A stretch of 43,274 bases of DNA from an uncultured Gammaproteobacteria bacterium. GTDB taxonomy: Bacteria > Pseudomonadota > Gammaproteobacteria > Enterobacterales > Psychrobiaceae. The notes beneath the pieces were generated by a model. That model ran no database searches and was not told where the DNA came from. It worked only from the letters and a program-made list of their open reading frames with translations. The stretch lies in the NCBI GenBank assembly GCA_913060565.1, contig CAJXRU010000018.1, positions 1 through 43,274 of the forward strand. The letters are read 5' to 3'. Position numbers and translations under genes: made by a program. Shown here one piece after another: positions 8,856 to 30,372 of this stretch. Numbering within the stretch: position 1 is the first letter of the stretch; each line of letters opens with the position of its first letter.

Positions 8856-9557
8856 TCATGGCGCGTCAATTATTACAATTTCACAATCTGTTCGTGCCGT
8901 AATTTTGAACGTTTGAGACATTGTTATTTGCGCGCCATCGCCTTTTTTCATTTGGGCAGTAGAGTACTCATTCTCGACAGTAAACTCACCGCTCGATGCC
9001 AACACATACACTTGATGATTGATAGGATGCGTAAAAGTTGTGCCGGCCTTTATTTTTCCACCGTAAATTCTCGCTTTTTGGTGAATAAATAGCGCATCAT
9101 TATCTTCTGAAAAGCCAGACACCAATAGTGGTAGTTTGGTATCACGTTTCGCTGGGAAGTCTTTGGTGCCCCAACGTGGCGTGACATCACGTTCATTGGG
9201 TTGTATCCAAATTTGATACAACGTCAGATCTTTATTACTGCGATTGTACTCTTCATGCACGATGCCCGTACCAGCACTCATCACCTGCACCTGACCTTGC
9301 TTTGTCACGCCACTATTACCAACACTGTCCTTGTGTGACACTGAGCCACTTCTAACGTAAGTAATAATTTCCATATTGTCGTGGGGATGCGGAGCAAAAC
9401 CAGTATTGGGTGCAATGATGTCATCGTTGATCACCCGCAAGGTGCCAAAGCCCATGCGCTTTGGATTATAATAATTAGCAAAACTAAAATGATGATTAGC
9501 ATTAAGCCAGCCGTGGTTAGCCTTGCCAAGTTGTTCAAATGGAATATGTTCAATCAT
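8856..9557 (-). CDS. Pirin-family bicupin protein (YhhW-like)
   Basis: This 233-aa protein has the pirin N-terminal cupin with metal-binding residues His57 and His59 (HPHDNMEI), His101 and Glu103 (GIVHEEYN), matching the canonical ligand pattern. Bacterial YhhW is a quercetin 2,3-dioxygenase in vitro; its physiological role is uncertain. The gene is divergent from a LysR-type regulator starting about 100 bp away, which probably controls it. The GFA gene downstream may be part of the same transcript. Confidence 0.88.
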   Translation of the reverse strand: MIEHIPFEQLGKANHGWLNANHHFSFANYYNPKRMGFGTLRVINDDIIAPNTGFAPHPHDNMEIITYVRSGSVSHKDSVGNSGVTKQGQVQVMSAGTGIVHEEYNRSNKDLTLYQIWIQPNERDVTPRWGTKDFPAKRDTKLPLLVSGFSEDNDALFIHQKARIYGGKIKAGTTFTHPINHQVYVLASSGEFTVENEYSTAQMKKGDGAQITMSQTFKITARTDCEIVIIDAP

Positions 9558-23707: not shown

Positions 23708-24928
23708 TTAAATGTTGTTGTGATCCCATACAAGATCTTTCACTTGCCAGCGACCATCAATCTTAATTAAGTGAAGGTATTCAACCCAATTATCTGACGT
23801 TAGCTTTACCGCTGCCATATTATGATAGACATCGAATGTAGTGACTTGATTATTCATGGTCGGTGGGAATCTAGTGCCGGTTTTATTCCAATTTTTGGCA
23901 TTATGCAACATGCGTTGATAACTAATCTTTCGCAATGTCTTTTTGCCATCCGGACCAATTCTTACCATACTTTTCGCTAAGTCTTTATGCAGCGTGTTCG
24001 CCATCAATTCCGGATTCAAAGATTGCAAAGCAATAATATAATTCAAAGAAACTTGTCTAATATTCTCTCGGTCTTTGCTACTAGCAGGTTTAACAGGGGC
24101 GATAGCTTGGCGAGGCATAAACTGCTCATTAAGATCAAAGCGATCGACATTCTTAAGTTTTCCCATTGAGCCATAGCGTTTAGTGGCGTAACTAAAACCA
24201 AATGGATTAACCGCAGGCTTATTATTCTTATCAAAATAACTGTATTTAATATGCTGGCCTAGGTCATTATATTCATCTTGATAATAAGCAACGCCAAACT
24301 CACTATTTGTTACTTGAGCTTCACTATTTAAATTATAAGTTCGATAGGGTCTATGATTATTATCATATTCTATGGCCGTATTTTTAAATGCAAAATATGG
24401 CGACAGATTTTGTGCCTCACCAACTAAATTTAATCGACTCTCAAGGACTCGATTTCCTTGTTTTTTCCATTGATAACGCGATATGTGCCATAAAGATTCT
24501 TTTGCGTTGCCTTCTACGTCATAAAAGTCTAGCTGCGTTTTAAAGCCAAATTCATCAACTGAAAAGACTTCCTTATGCACCCCGCGAATATTAAGCATTG
24601 GTCGATTTTTTACATCAAAATAGCGACGAATTTCTTGGCCATTTTCATAATCAATTGAGACTCGATAAGCCCCCAAGTGAGTCAAAGGGTGTTGCCTAAA
24701 GCGTCCAAATGTATGATTAACGATTTCTACAATTCGTTTTTTATCATCATACCGAAATTGAAAATGTGACTTTCCTTTTGGAGGCTCTTTGTAAGGCATG
24801 ATTCCAACAATTGGTACATGCAACGAAACATGGTTATATCTCAACTCACCAAAATACGCTATTGAGTCATCCTTTGCTTGAAGAGAAAAAACGACTGCGA
24901 ATAAACAGCCTGCGATCAATAATTTCAT
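23708..24928 (-). CDS. Secreted protein with C-terminal NTF2-like domain
   Basis: The protein has 406 residues from ATG 24928, which has GAGG 5 nt upstream; an earlier ATG at 24958 lies inside an operator-like palindrome. A signal peptide (MKLLIAGCLFAVVFSLQA) is followed by about 250 residues of aromatic-rich, repetitive strands (RRYFDVKNRP, KESLWHISRYQWKK, YSYFDKNNKPAVN) resembling the turn repeats of YwqK/WG-like proteins. The last ~120 residues look like a putative lumazine-binding/NTF2-like domain (NYIIALQSLNPELM, NMAAVKLTSDNWVEYLHLIK, DGRWQVKDLVW). The function is unknown, and no catalytic residues are evident. Confidence 0.65.
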   Translation of the reverse strand: MKLLIAGCLFAVVFSLQAKDDSIAYFGELRYNHVSLHVPIVGIMPYKEPPKGKSHFQFRYDDKKRIVEIVNHTFGRFRQHPLTHLGAYRVSIDYENGQEIRRYFDVKNRPMLNIRGVHKEVFSVDEFGFKTQLDFYDVEGNAKESLWHISRYQWKKQGNRVLESRLNLVGEAQNLSPYFAFKNTAIEYDNNHRPYRTYNLNSEAQVTNSEFGVAYYQDEYNDLGQHIKYSYFDKNNKPAVNPFGFSYATKRYGSMGKLKNVDRFDLNEQFMPRQAIAPVKPASSKDRENIRQVSLNYIIALQSLNPELMANTLHKDLAKSMVRIGPDGKKTLRKISYQRMLHNAKNWNKTGTRFPPTMNNQVTTFDVYHNMAAVKLTSDNWVEYLHLIKIDGRWQVKDLVWDHNNI

Positions 24929-24941
24929 TACCGCCTCATTA

Positions 24942-24992
24942 ATTACACTTGTAATCATTTTTTAGCATAGAGTTATGAATTACACAAGTAAT
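24942..24992 (-). promoter_or_regulatory. Pair of ATTACnnGTGTAAT operators upstream of the NTF2-like gene
   Basis: Read on the minus strand, ATTACTTGTGTAAT (24992-24979) and ATTACAAGTGTAAT (24955-24942) are the same element, 12 of 14 bases identical, with centres 37 bp apart. Each is itself a near-palindrome. A possible promoter (TTACTT, 16 bp, TATGCT) lies between and over them, so a bound repressor would cover both the -35 region and the start region. The inner site contains TACAnnTGTA, the half-site arrangement used by BlaI/CopY-type repressors. The protein that binds is unknown. Confidence 0.5.
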
Positions 24993-25034
24993 CCATAGCG
25001 ACAATAAAAATTATAAAAAAGTTTATATTTATCG

Positions 25035-25065
25035 TTGACAAACACTAATGAGAATGATTATTATT
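25035..25065 (+). promoter_or_regulatory. Fur-controlled sigma-70 promoter of ryhB copy A
   Basis: TTGACA (25035-25040) is followed after 18 bp by TATTAT (25059-25064). The Fur-box sequence AATGAGAATGATTATTATT (25047-25065) covers the spacer and -10 region; 12 of its 19 bases match the classical Fur consensus by my count. Fur-Fe2+ should therefore block transcription when iron is plentiful. Confidence 0.85.
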
Positions 25066-25070
25066 AACTC

Positions 25071-25231
25071 GTGTTTTACGAAACACATCTCCTGACGATG
25101 AATTTGATAATGCTGTTTATTATTGATCCTCATTGTTGTGTGTTGATATTTACGGTGTCAATACACACGACTATTGCTCACATTGCTATTATTAGGCCGC
25201 CCACAGTACATCGTGTTGCGGCCGCTTTTTT
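25071..25231 (+). ncRNA. ryhB: RyhB iron-responsive small RNA, copy A
   Basis: RyhB homologue of about 160 nt, made when Fur repression is lifted; in other bacteria it base-pairs through Hfq to silence mRNAs of iron-using proteins. The core at 25166-25187, CACGACTATTGC followed by TCACATTGCT, equals the E. coli RyhB seed apart from one inserted base. Three elements surround it. The first is a 5' hairpin (25071-25086) followed by unpaired ATCTCCTGAC. The second is an 11-bp central hairpin (25137-25147 with 25157-25167). The third is an intrinsic terminator: GGCCGC (25195-25200), GCGGCC (25218-25223) and six T (25226-25231). It is longer than the 90-nt E. coli RNA, as in Vibrio and Shewanella. 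The transcription start is inferred from the promoter. Confidence 0.88.
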
Positions 25232-25330
25232 ATGCGCTGAAAATTATCCAAACTACGTCGCAATGCCACATTGCAATACTCTTATCAAAATAAGCCACTA
25301 TATGTTTCTTATATATGCGGCCGCTTTTTT
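25232..25330 (+). repeat. Promoterless RyhB 3' module 1
   Basis: Directly behind copy A lies a linker with GCAATG-CCA-CATTGC, a degenerate version of the RyhB seed region. It is followed by a terminator-like end, TATAT-gtttctt-ATATA then GCGGCCGC and T6 (to 25330). The 5' terminator arm has decayed to AAGCCAC. There is no Fur box or promoter of its own, so it would be transcribed only by read-through from copy A. Confidence 0.6.
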
Positions 25331-25331
25331 A

Positions 25332-25529
25332 TGTGTTAAAAAATATTCAAGCTGCTTCGTAATGTTTCATTCCATAACCACTGTCGCGACTTGGAAATTC
25401 ACAGGACATGCATGAAGGTAAGGATTGTAAGATGTTTATTATCGTCAATATGTTAAAAATAGAAGTCGAACATATTTATTAATAATCAACACTTTAAAAA
25501 TTAAATGTGAAAATAATTAAATTATAGTG
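25332..25529. other. Intergenic spacer between the two RyhB units
   Basis: The first ~50 bp is a decayed continuation of the module linker (GCTGCTTCGTAATG, related to CTACGTCGCAATG elsewhere). The rest is A/T-rich sequence leading to the second promoter. I see no gene or further structure. Confidence 0.5.
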
Positions 25530-25559
25530 TTGACACACCAAATGAGAATGATTATTATT
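25530..25559 (+). promoter_or_regulatory. Fur-controlled sigma-70 promoter of ryhB copy B
   Basis: TTGACA (25530-25535), a 17-bp spacer and TATTAT (25553-25558) form a near-consensus promoter. The same 19-bp Fur box as in copy A, AATGAGAATGATTATTATT, lies at 25541-25559. It is one base closer to the -35 box than in copy A. Confidence 0.87.
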
Positions 25560-25562
25560 TAC

Positions 25563-25726
25563 CTGCGTTTGAGAGAACGCATCTCCTGACAATGAATCTA
25601 ATGATGTTGTTTATTATTAGTGCTCATTGTTGTGTATTGATGTTTACGGTATCAATGCACACGACTATTGCTCACATTGCTATTATTAGGCCGCTATATG
25701 TTTCTTATATATGCGGCCGCTTTTTT
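25563..25726 (+). ncRNA. ryhB: RyhB iron-responsive small RNA, copy B
   Basis: Second complete copy, about 163 nt, 490 bp downstream of copy A on the same strand. The seed (25660-25681) is identical to copy A. The 5' hairpin GCGTT/AACGC (25565-25569, 25576-25580) replaces GTGTT/AACAC of copy A by a compensatory pair change. The 11-bp central hairpin (25631-25641 with 25651-25661) has three base differences, all of which keep pairing. The terminator is longer than in copy A: GGCCGC plus TATAT (from 25689) pairs with ATATA plus GCGGCC (to 25718), then T6 at 25721-25726. Substitutions in stems but none in the seed indicate that both copies are under selection as RNAs. Confidence 0.88.
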
Positions 25727-25925
25727 ATGTGCTGAAAAAATATTCAAGCTACTTCGCAATGCCGCATTGCAATACTCTTATCAAAATAAGCCACTATATG
25801 TTTCTTATATATGCGGGCGCTTCTTTATGCGCCGAAAATTATCCAAACTACGTCGCAATGTCACATTGCTTACTCTCATTAAAATCAGGCCGCCCACAAT
25901 CGATCCTGTTGCGGCCGCTTTTTTA
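25727..25925 (+). repeat. Promoterless RyhB 3' modules 2 and 3
   Basis: Two more seed-plus-terminator modules follow copy B. Module 2 (about 25740-25830) has GCAATGCCGCATTGC and a damaged terminator (GCGGGCGCTTCTTT). Module 3 (about 25845-25924) has GCAATGTCACATTGCT, close to the true seed, and an intact terminator: GGCCGC 25888-25893, GCGGCC 25911-25916 and T6 25919-25924. No promoter or Fur box is visible for either. Module 3's loop (CCACAATCG...) resembles copy A's terminator loop, and module 2's resembles copy B's. The array therefore looks like mixed duplications. Confidence 0.6.
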
Positions 25926-25979
25926 TGTATTAGAAGAACGTTCGCAAACTCGTGAGCCAGCATCTTCAATGAAAGATGT

Positions 25980-26405
25980 TTAAGAGTGACCAAGATAGGG
26001 TGTTAAAAAATCTTCAACCTGCTGAGCACACAAGCCTATTTCTATATCGATACCAGCCTTTCGTAAGATATCAATGCCTTGTCCACTATTGCGCGGATCC
26101 GGATCTAAAAGTGCAACCACTACCTGCTTAATCCCCGATGAAACTAATGTCTCAGCACATGCAGGCGTGCGTCCAATAAAAGAACATGGTTCAAGCGTCA
26201 CGTATGCAGTCACGCCTTCCATACTTCCTTCATAGTTATTAAGCGCCTGCACTTCAGCGTGGTTTCCGCCGATAGATTGTGTAAAGCCTTCTGCAACAAT
26301 ATCGTTTTCTTTGACAAGAACACAGCCAACTGGAGGATTAGGAATGCAACTTGGGAGAGCATTGCGTGATATCGCTAATGCTCTTAACATGAATTTATCT
26401 GACAT
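25980..26405 (-). CDS. Stand-alone RibD-type cytidine deaminase-fold protein
   Basis: This 141-aa protein corresponds to the N-terminal deaminase half of RibD (about 145 of ~365 residues): MLRALAISRNALPSCIPNPPVGCVLV, zinc ligands His49 (NHAEVQAL), Cys74 and Cys83 (LEPCSFIGRTPAC), and catalytic Glu51. The NADPH-dependent reductase half is absent, and the next gene is not a reductase. It could deaminate the riboflavin precursor or another pyrimidine-like compound. A housekeeping RibD is expected elsewhere. It lies 10 bp after elbB on the same strand, probably one operon. Confidence 0.82.
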   Translation of the reverse strand: MSDKFMLRALAISRNALPSCIPNPPVGCVLVKENDIVAEGFTQSIGGNHAEVQALNNYEGSMEGVTAYVTLEPCSFIGRTPACAETLVSSGIKQVVVALLDPDPRNSGQGIDILRKAGIDIEIGLCAQQVEDFLTPYLGHS

Positions 26406-26415
26406 ACGTTAACAG

Positions 26416-27072
26416 CTACGCCATCATCTTAACTAGCTGAGTAACACCGTTCTCAATACCAGTTGCGGCTTGTGAGATTGACTGCGCTAACATGTAAGCT
26501 GGCGTCGAAATAACTTGACGAGTTTCATCAACCACAATACCTTCAACATCACGCTCAATGTGTATTCCGCCCATTGCTTCGATCGCTTCTATTGTCGCAG
26601 GATCATTACCGATAGTTAGTTCAACACCTTTTCCATAGACACAAGGTAATAAAGCAGGCGCAATACACATGTATAATGCAGGACGTGAAAGCTTACTAAA
26701 CTCTTTCAATGCAAAAAGCGTCGTGCTATCAACCGTACTTTGAGCGCCATTAATCGCAAAATCAGATAAGTTTTTGGCAACGCCAAATCCACCAACCACC
26801 ACCACGCCGTCAAATTCTTCGACAACACAATTAGCAAGATCTTGCACATCACCACGATTGATCCTTGCAGCTTCTACCAAAACATTTCTAGAAGCAGCTG
26901 AATCTTCTTCACCTGTTAAATGATTGATCACATGGTGTTGCTCAATATTTGGAGCAAAGCATACTGCTTGTACACCCGCACGATCAAGACTTAACAAGGT
27001 GACGATCGCTTCTTGCAATTCTGATCCATCATAAACCCCAGATCCCGATAAGATCACCGCTACTTTCTTCAT
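26416..27072 (-). CDS. elbB: Glyoxalase ElbB (DJ-1/PfpI-like)
   Basis: This 218-aa protein matches ElbB throughout: KKVAVILSGSGVYDGSELQE, VLVEAARINRGDVQDL, GVVVVGGFGVAKNLSDFA, the nucleophile-elbow region ALYMCIAPALLP and QVISTPAYMLAQSISQAATG. ElbB is a class I amidotransferase-fold protein with weak glyoxalase activity, originally linked to isoprenoid production. The true role is unclear. The start has a GGGGAAAA ribosome-binding region upstream. Confidence 0.92.
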   Translation of the reverse strand: MKKVAVILSGSGVYDGSELQEAIVTLLSLDRAGVQAVCFAPNIEQHHVINHLTGEEDSAASRNVLVEAARINRGDVQDLANCVVEEFDGVVVVGGFGVAKNLSDFAINGAQSTVDSTTLFALKEFSKLSRPALYMCIAPALLPCVYGKGVELTIGNDPATIEAIEAMGGIHIERDVEGIVVDETRQVISTPAYMLAQSISQAATGIENGVTQLVKMMA

Positions 27073-27582: not shown

Positions 27583-30372
27583 ATGGCTACTGTTAAAGAA
27601 AATCCTTTTGTCCTCGTTGATGGATCATCCTATTTATTTCGTGCGTTTTTCGCTCCCCCTCATTTAACGAATTCGAAGGGTGAAGCAACTGGTGCAGTAT
27701 ACGGCGTGATCAACATGCTTCGATCATTGATAAATCAATATAAGCCAAGCAATATGGTTGTCGTTTTCGATGCTAAAGGGCCAACCTTTAGAAATGAAAT
27801 GTTCAGTGAATACAAAGCAAATCGTCCGCCAATGCCAGACGATTTGAGAATTCAAATTGAACCATTACACGAATTGATCAAAGCCATGGGCATTCCACTA
27901 ATTTCCATACCTGGTGTCGAAGCTGATGATGTGATCGGAACCTTAGCAATGCAGGCCAGTAAACAAGGTATTCATACGTTAATCAGTACGGGTGATAAAG
28001 ACATGGCTCAATTGGTTGATGAGAATGTTACCCTCATCAATACCATGACCAATACCATCTTAGATCGTGATGGTGTGATTGAAAAATTTGGTGTGCCACC
28101 AGAGCTCATCATCGACTTTCTTGGCTTAATGGGCGATAGCTCAGATAATATTCCTGGTGTGCCAAAGGTGGGTGAAAAGACCGCGCTTGGCATGCTGCAA
28201 GGTATCGGTAGTGTAAATGATATTTATAACAACATTGATAAATTAGCGACCTTAAGTTTCCGAGGCGCCAAGACCATCGGTAAACGCATGCTAGAGCATG
28301 AAGAAATGGCACGTTTATCGTATAAACTAGCCACAATCAAACTTGATGTGGAGCTAGAACAAGGTCATAAAGATTTTGTCATGGGCACGCCTGCTCAAGA
28401 TAAAATCATCGAAATATTAGGCCAATTAGAGTTCAAACGCTGGTTAGCTGAAGCATTAGAGGGTCGTAATCCTTTAGGGGTTGGTGATGATTCAGCACCT
28501 AGTGCAAGCTCAGGTGAAAACGAACCGTCTAAAACAAGTATTAAAACCAATGATTACCCAGTGCTCTATACACTCGGTCAAATGATGCAATGGTTGCGTA
28601 AACTTTCCGAAGCAAAAGAGTTTGCGTTCGATTTAGAAACAAACAGTTTAGATTACATGCAGGCGGAAATTGTTGGCATGTCATTCGCGATAAAAAATGA
28701 TGATGAGTTTGAAGCGGCATACTTGCCACTCGCTCATGACTATGAAGATGCGCCTAAACAAATCACCTGTGAAATGGCATTGGAGAAATTTAAACCTTTG
28801 CTAGAAGACGCTTCGCTGAAGAAGATCGGTCAAAACTTAAAGTATGATCGCAATGTTCTTAAAAACTATGACATCACGTTAAATGGCATTAGTCACGATA
28901 CGATGTTGGCATCTTATGTGTTCAACTCAACTGCTGTTAAACACAATATGGATGCGCTATCGCTTAAGTACCTTGGTCATAAAACGATTAAATTCGAAGA
29001 TATCGCAGGGAAAGGTGCTAAGCAATTAACGTTTAATCAGATAAAAATTAGCGAAGCGGCTCCTTACGCTGCTGAAGATGCTGATATCACATTACGCTTG
29101 CACCACAATCTCATTGAACGTTTAGACAATGAACCGACTTTGCGTAAACTTTATGACACCATTGAAATGCCATTGTTGCCAGTGTTAGCAGATATGGAAC
29201 GCAGTGGTGTACTTGTCGATGATACACAGTTATTCGAACAAAGTGGTCAACTGGCAATTCGCATCGATGAATTAGAACAACAAGCATGGTCACTCGCCGG
29301 TGAAGAATTTAACTTGGGTTCGACCAAACAGCTTCAAGATATTTTGTTTAGCGAAGAAAAAATGTCACTTCCGGTTCTTAAAAAGACCCCAAAAGGCGCA
29401 CCGTCTACTAATGAAGAAGTGTTACAAGAACTTGCCCATGATTACGAACTACCAAAAGTTATTTTGGAATACCGTAGTTTAACCAAACTAAAATCGACTT
29501 ATACCGATAAATTGCCATTAATGATCAATGCGTCAACTGGTCGTGTGCACACTAGCTATCATCAAGCCGTAACGGCCACAGGTCGTTTATCATCAACAGA
29601 TCCGAACTTACAAAATATTCCGATTAGAAGTGATGAGGGCAAACGAATTCGCCAAGCATTTATTGCGCGTGATGGTTATCAAGTTGTCGCCATAGATTAC
29701 AGCCAAATTGAATTGCGTATCATGGCTCACTTGTCACAGGATGAGGGCTTATTAAAAGCATTTGCTAATGATTTAGATATTCACCGCGCGACGGCATCAG
29801 AAGTATTCAATACACCATTTGACGAAGTGACAACAGATCAACGCCGCAGTGCTAAAGCCGTAAACTTTGGCTTAATTTATGGTATGTCTGCGTTTGGTTT
29901 ATCTAAGCAACTCGATATTCCTCGAGGATTAGCGCAGCAATATATCGATAGCTATTTCGATAAATACCCAGGCGTAATGCAATACATGGAAGACACTCGC
30001 ACGAACGCTGCTGATAAAGGCTATGTTGAAACGCTAGACGGTCGTCGACTTTACTTGCCGGATATAAAAGCAAGTAATGGCGCGCGTCGTAAAGCCGCTG
30101 AGCGTGCTGCGATTAATGCACCAATGCAAGGCACTGCTGCGGATATTATTAAAAAAGCTATGTTGTTAGTAAGTGCTTGGTTAAAAGAGCAGCCAAGCGA
30201 ACTTGCTACCATGATTATGCAAGTTCACGATGAATTAGTGTTTGAAGTGCAAACCGATAAAGTCGAACAGTTTAATAAAGACGTTGCAGCACTAATGGCA
30301 CAAGCTGCAGATTTAGATGTTCCGCTAATCGCAGAATCAGGATCTGGTGAAAATTGGCAACAAGCTCATTAA
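27583..30372 (+). CDS. polA: DNA polymerase I
   Basis: This 929-aa enzyme has all three activities recognisable. The 5'-3' exonuclease (about 1-290) has [12 protein letters not shown] and [11 protein letters not shown]. The 3'-5' proofreading exonuclease (about 335-520) keeps its acidic residues ([32 protein letters not shown]). The polymerase (about 530-929) has motif [12 protein letters not shown] (about 702), motif [15 protein letters not shown] (about 756) and motif [10 protein letters not shown] (about 880). The length matches E. coli (928). It fills gaps in excision repair and removes Okazaki primers. Two small RNA genes follow it immediately. Confidence 0.98.

Follow-up and report, generated by a model that had tools for sequence, protein, structure and literature searches.

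Two tandem RyhB-type small RNA genes, predicted to be repressed by Fur, in a genome of the Psychrobium lineage

Does a repeated segment in the stretch of DNA analysed here (43,274 nt from a marine bacterium, hereafter the window) hold two genes for the small RNA RyhB and, if so, do the two copies act alike? Two complete RyhB-type genes lie on the plus strand, R1 at ~25070-25231 and R2 at ~25564-25726 (Table 1). They form an imperfect tandem duplication with a spacing of 494 bp, in which positions 25047-25200 recur at 25541-25694 with 86% identity over 154 nt. Taken as a whole, the locus very probably encodes two tandem RyhB orthologues that would be repressed by Fur and would spare iron through pairing of their core.

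Table 1. Features of the ryhB locus and its downstream neighbours in the window.
Feature	Position	Strand	Basis or remark
R1 promoter, TTGACA-18-TATTAT	25035-25064 (TTGACA 25035-25040, TATTAT 25059-25064)	+	11/12 matches
R1 Fur box, overlapping the -10	25047-25065	+	sequence
ryhB copy 1 (R1), predicted RNA ~161 nt	25070-25231 (predicted ends)	+	relaxed Rfam, folds
R1 5' hairpin	25071-25086	+	folds, consensus, covariation
R1 motif ATCTCCTGAC	25087-25096	+	ATCTCCT predicted unpaired; GAC starts hairpin 2
R1 hairpins 2 and 3	25094-25166	+	compensatory changes among relatives
R1 RyhB core, target-pairing region	25166-25187	+	relaxed Rfam, core search
R1 intrinsic terminator	25195-25231	+	fold
Satellite s1, RyhB-type terminator	25240-25332	+	hairpin GCAATG-CCA-CATTGC at 25260-25274
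Satellite s2, degenerate, without terminator	25333-25400	+	
R2 promoter, TTGACA-17-TATTAT	25530-25558	+	11/12 matches
R2 Fur box, same as R1 box	25541-25559	+	sequence
ryhB copy 2 (R2), predicted RNA ~162 nt	25564-25726 (predicted ends)	+	relaxed Rfam, folds
R2 motif ATCTCCTGAC, as in R1	25581-25590	+	sequence
R2 RyhB core, same as R1 core	25660-25681	+	relaxed Rfam, core search
R2 intrinsic terminator	25689-25726	+	fold
Satellite s3, with terminator	25735-25828	+	hairpin at 25756-25770
Satellite s4, with terminator	25834-25927	+	hairpin at 25855-25869; terminator R1-like by eye
elbB, between ryhB and polA	26416-27072	-	NCBIfam ElbB, 291 bits
polA	27583-30372	+	NCBIfam DNA polymerase I

The RyhB core, CACGACTATTGCTCACATTGCT, occurs twice in the window when up to three mismatches are allowed, both times exactly, with 0.01 sites expected by chance. 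The promoter-like matches of the two copies are the two best among the 8 in the window (5.4 expected from shuffles). A GC stem followed by a T run folds in both R1 and R2 as an intrinsic terminator with a U tail; a terminator pattern scan restricted to loops of 3-8 listed none in the window. The initial annotation had described two complete RyhB genes in tandem on one strand, each with its own TTGACA/TATTAT promoter, a GC-rich intrinsic terminator and an E. coli-like seed with one inserted base, CACGAC(T)ATTGCTCACATTGCT, and the core, promoters, folds and relaxed Rfam matches bear this out for both copies. A protein-coding reading was rejected, the 114-aa frame at 25071 having no Pfam match.

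At Rfam gathering thresholds there were no matches in the window, and RF00057 (RyhB) had no match anywhere in the genome at E<=0.001. Comparison with the RyhB model at a relaxed threshold had been proposed, and over 24900-26050 RyhB was the best family for both copies, with sub-gathering scores of 27.1 and 26.0 bits against a gathering score of 55. The PrrF family (RF00444) scored lower, at 23.0 and 17.8 bits for a gathering score of 90. Two further members of the Psychrobium lineage (L052 and L056) went unreported by Rfam at gathering; the RyhB model at its cut-off thus misses the genes in the three lineage genomes tested (L052, L056 and G000, the genome of the window), so that automatic annotation may overlook them. 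RyhB of Shewanella oneidensis likewise escaped both BLAST and the Rfam model and was identified through synteny (PMC2964681), and we therefore reversed the test with a model of the lineage itself.

A covariance model of the core and terminator (model R1) was built from all 16 Psychrobium-lineage copies, i.e., 15 places in eight genomes plus L052 from the named collection. Searched against 394 genomes of the order at E<=0.001, with strict filters that lose weak matches, it matched 54 genomes, eight within the genus and 46 in four other families. Fourteen of the 22 non-genus loci returned, from two families, were tested, and all 14 are RyhB above Rfam gathering. The conserved core ATTGCTCACATTGCT is present in R1, R2 and these 14 above-gathering loci.

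Gene order points the same way. In the window the ryhB pair is followed by a deaminase gene, elbB and polA, and three of the 22 non-genus loci (L072, L076 and L079), each a RyhB above gathering, share the arrangement ryhB-elbB-polA; within flanks of ~1.5 kb it was not seen in the other 19. The comparison of synteny suggested at the outset thus links the locus to accepted RyhB loci outside the genus. Among the lineage genomes, polA lies downstream of ryhB in G000, G002, G003, G004, G005 (single copy), G006, G008 and L052, and elbB lies between the two in G000, G002, G003 and L052 only. In G007, elbB and an HD-domain gene flank the pair, and the fetched stretch does not contain polA. The ryhB gene of V. 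cholerae is downstream of VC0106 and that of Shewanella is downstream of the orthologue SO4716 (PMC2964681); we infer that this is the same region as the place of ryhB in the window. By core, gene order and the reversed model search, R1 and R2 qualify as predicted orthologues of RyhB, and we do not claim membership in the Rfam family; the 16-copy alignment is material for widening the RyhB family model. The deaminase gene of the window (25980-26405, minus strand, 141 aa, between ryhB and elbB) encodes a stand-alone RibD-type deaminase domain without the reductase half, which scores 146.9 bits, under the RibD cut-off of 156.35.

The initial annotation pointed to Colwelliaceae and knew of no description of tandem RyhB for the lineage. 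The lineage is instead Psychrobium, which the NCBI taxonomy places within Shewanellaceae; of six named core-bearing stretches, three are assigned to Psychrobium/Psychrobiaceae and three only to Gammaproteobacteria, Alteromonadales and Enterobacterales. Novelty was also overstated, since tandem ryhB genes are known in Shewanella amazonensis (PMC2964681). The pair is of an already described kind, represented by the tandem ryhB of Shewanella and the tandem PrrF of Pseudomonas, and the present data extend tandem RyhB to the Psychrobium lineage, for which a literature search on Psychrobium and small RNA found nothing.

As described in PMC2964681, Shewanella RyhB shares with R1 and R2 the Fur box, a conserved core, the failure of Rfam to detect it, tandem arrangement in one species, and length: the mapped S. 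oneidensis RNA has 168 nt vs ~161-162 nt predicted here, while RyhB of E. coli has 90 nt. Enterobacterial RyhB (RF00057) likewise has the core CACGAC(T)ATTGCTCACATTGCT, a Fur-like box and a terminator, but the copies here differ from it in having an extra base in the core, a longer 5' domain and a sub-gathering score. PrrF1 and PrrF2 of Pseudomonas aeruginosa are also tandem iron-sparing RNAs, and read-through there yields PrrH (PMC4211561); R1 and R2 differ from them in that the PrrF model scores below the RyhB model. Yersinia (RyhB1/RyhB2) and Salmonella (RfrA/RfrB) carry two copies per genome too, but these are distal to each other (PMC4211561).

The same 19-nt box, AATGAGAATGATTATTATT, precedes R1 and R2. 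The Fur consensus is TGATAATNATTATCA, and the 15-nt part TGAGAATGATTATTA of the box is two positions off it. There are three sites this close to TGATAATNATTATCA in the window, both ryhB boxes and one at 9466, vs 0.56 expected, and 3 shuffles reached three; a search with the 19-bp Fur consensus at <=3 mismatches found the R1 box alone. The third site (9466-9480, plus strand, two mismatches) is a Fur-core-like site near chance expectation. Among the 16 lineage copies, a Fur-like box precedes 14 by pattern and the other two, the distal G005 pair, by eye (TGATAATGATTATTA and TGGTAATGATTATTA). Genes for two Fur-family proteins and one Hfq are present in the genome. Of the earlier description of the RNAs as Fur-controlled, the identical Fur-like 19-bp box before each copy therefore stands, and Fur control itself is putative.

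The 5' part is predicted to be laid out as a hairpin, an exposed ATCTCCT and further hairpins; the folds of R1 and R2 leave ATCTCCT and most of the core unpaired. Covariation was assessed on 6 of the 16 copies (from G000, G007 and G008), picked for good alignment: 10 of 47 pairs changed on both sides vs 5.1 in shuffles, none of 500 shuffles having as many, with the caveat that the structure was derived from one of the tested sequences, which favours that structure. When partners were slid in this set, pairing fell from 93% to 32-47%. Pairing is weaker in the upper part of hairpin 2 (78% of cells paired) and in the upper stem of the terminator (67%). Two pairs of the consensus 5' hairpin changed on both sides, and the first copy of G008 lacks this hairpin. 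In single folds of the other copies, some of the CTCC stretch is paired in three (G005a, G005b_2 and L052) and some of the core region in three (L052, G004 and G007_1).

The core, searched with one free base and at most one mismatch, is present in 8 of the 9 family genomes, at the 15 places mentioned above. All 16 copies have ACGACTATTGCTCACATTGCTAT, a GGCCG..CGGCC terminator and, within their first 40 nt, CTCC; CTCCTGAC is found in 15 and ATCTCCTGAC in 13. The conserved 5' CTCC motif is new here, and the ATCTCCTGAC/ATCTCCT stretch is, from the modelled folds, a possible second pairing region. Adjacent pairs occupy this locus in 5 of the 9 genomes (G000, G003, G006, G007 and G008), G002 and G004 have a single copy, and G005 has one here and two elsewhere. 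The ninth genome (G001) lacks the core, probably through an assembly gap, given its completeness of 80% and a contig that starts inside a satellite unit (see below) and continues into the deaminase gene. In G005 the distal copies (L011 ~1362-2746, G005:C8) form a second RyhB pair; they lie 1190 bp from each other, a gene-sized frame separates them, and polA is not nearby.

Two copies may raise dosage, and R1 and R2 look largely redundant in this respect. The initial annotation held that the regions outside the seed differ and allow divergent targets, a possibility suggested for the Salmonella Rfr pair (PMC4211561). The regions do differ, the 5' domains being only 80% identical (77 of 96 columns), but the differences fall mainly in hairpin arms, most of which still pair, and in terminator loops; the predicted single-stranded 5' element is the same. 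Since both predicted single-stranded elements, the 5' stretch and the core, are identical in R1 and R2, redundancy is favoured over divergent targets, and the latter part of the claim is not supported. That R1 and R2 have become paralogues with different targets through their differing 5' halves is accordingly rather unlikely. In its favour, copy-specific letters of the terminator and hairpin 3 are common to G000 and G007, the first copies resembling each other and the second copies likewise, which suggests that the pair predates the split of these genomes. Against it, same-genome copies group in the tree in G003, G006, G008 and the distal G005 pair, and weakly in G007 (50/55); the G000 copies are ungrouped, and the fork holding G000 and G007 is poorly supported. 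In the 5' domain, moreover, G000_2 is closer to G007_1 (78/96) than to G007_2 (73/96), so that gene exchange or separate duplications are possible alternative histories of these copies.

It is improbable that only one copy works and the other is a silent duplicate: copy number does vary from 1 to 3 among the 8 core-bearing genomes, but in G000, G003, G006, G007 and G008 neither copy has lost its promoter-like letters, Fur-like box or core, with the caveat that the first G008 copy is the one without a 5' hairpin.

Along with RyhB homology, Fur-like boxes, conserved structure and gene order, and the Fur-family and Hfq genes, the computation found complementarity to sdhC; for expression, Fur repression, RNA ends and target regulation of R1 and R2 we infer the following course. 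In iron-replete cells, Fur-Fe2+ would occupy the box over the -10 and shut off the two promoters. On iron starvation both ~160-nt RNAs would be made and, with Hfq, their exposed core ACGACTATTGCTCACATTGCT would pair to the translation starts of iron-using genes (sdhC, probably sodB), stopping translation and sparing iron.

Target starts were found for sdhC and for sodB in 8 of the 9 genomes each. Pairing of the core with the sdhC start ranged from -16.7 to -22.3 kcal/mol over the 8 genomes (mean -20.3), and none of 400 shuffled cores was as low; the shuffles preserve letters but break up neighbours, and relatedness among the sdhC and sodB rows means that they are not independent. Ranked against 344 background starts, taken by a simple start-picking script from the window and 20 stretches of the same genome, sdhC was in the best 1.5% in 6 of 8 genomes and at 9.3 and 13.7% in the others, the ranked sdhC stretches being 10 nt longer than the background ones (120 vs 110 nt). 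The site takes in the start region (AGCTTAAGTGAGCACAATCGTG in G000), with candidate GTG starts of which the first is missing in G003 and G005. For sodB, 2 of 400 shuffled cores were as low in mean, and the ranks among the 344 starts were 1.2, 1.7, 3.2, 8.7, 8.7, 37, 49 and 93% (G000, 8.7%). Complementarity of the core to sdhC and, unevenly, to sodB thus fits predicted iron sparing. A point against iron sparing via sdhC is that in S. oneidensis AcnA and SdhA are not under RyhB control (PMC2964681), unlike what the sdhC-complementary core would imply here.

The 5' motif was no better than shuffles against sdhC (215 of 400 as low). With the sodB Shine-Dalgarno region it paired better than any of 400 shuffles and ranked at 2-18% among the 344 starts, but the C-rich letters of the motif pair with any Shine-Dalgarno. 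It is conceivable, though unlikely, that besides the core this RyhB uses a second seed, ATCTCCTGA, against the sodB Shine-Dalgarno region. In G000, TCAGGAGAT stands before an ATG at two places only (control, 0), so 9-nt matches of this sort are infrequent there and do not single out iron genes; the sites precede a 17-aa frame and a 370-aa frame, the latter a putative flagellar P-ring protein. Anti-core sites at <=2 mismatches number 31 in G000 (control, 11), two of them the genes' own. As targets these genome-wide sites were rejected, 28 of the 29 others having been inspected by eye with no clear target start; the only one-mismatch site (L024) is antisense inside a long frame.

Behind R1 and R2 stand four ~100-bp satellite units, one of them degenerate. 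In G007 there are five behind copy 1 and one, without a terminator, behind copy 2. Eight of these ten units have the stem GCAATG-NNN-CATTGC, then TACTCT-like letters and a stretch like the RyhB terminator (eroded in some); the terminator of s1 is 92% like that of R2 vs 60% like that of R1. The stem-and-GCC pattern occurs at three places in G000, two in G007 and none elsewhere in the 9 genomes, and a covariance model of the eight units (model R2, the two degenerate ones excluded) matched 3 of 394 genomes, G000, G007 and G001, all of the own genus. The G001 unit is the one at the contig end that leads into the deaminase gene. Units were located at 25240-25400 and 25735-25927 of the window and at L013 412-1458 (minus strand), and a dispersed repeat was rejected, none having turned up in the 9 genomes outside this contig end and the ryhB loci of G000 and G007. 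The terminator likeness and the shared CATTGC letters suggest that the satellites arose locally, as a tandem array, from the 3' part of RyhB; in them a reverse complement of the right core half would have taken the place of the left one. The satellite units are new here, and the locus is otherwise mostly ordinary; the comparison with Shewanella RyhB was made by description alone, and satellites are unmentioned in the sections of PMC2964681 on which it draws.

It is very unlikely that these units are a RyhB decoy or sponge made by read-through of the RyhB terminators. They do keep the seed half CATTGC paired with GCAATG, and all 12 stem columns are invariant in the eight units vs 25 of 75 filled columns overall (hypergeometric 2e-7, for neighbouring columns that are not independent and with the two degenerate, stem-departing units excluded), but the anti-seed is a consequence of the hairpin itself. 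Core pairing is moderate in G007, where 7, 14, 17 and 31 of 300 shuffles were as low for s3, s2, s4 and s5 and 69 for s1, and is unremarkable in G000 (19, 42 and 190 of 300), which makes a sponge unlikely; in G000 such a role is not supported by these pairing energies. No Fur-like site precedes the units, the one promoter-like match (9/12, inside s4) is weak, and the units occur in only the three genomes named. Backup terminators or a neutral array are simpler readings than a sponge. If, as is most doubtful, the locus encoded its own counter-regulator, with read-through satellites trapping RyhB or Hfq at very strong RyhB transcription, this trapping would be a built-in ceiling on RyhB.
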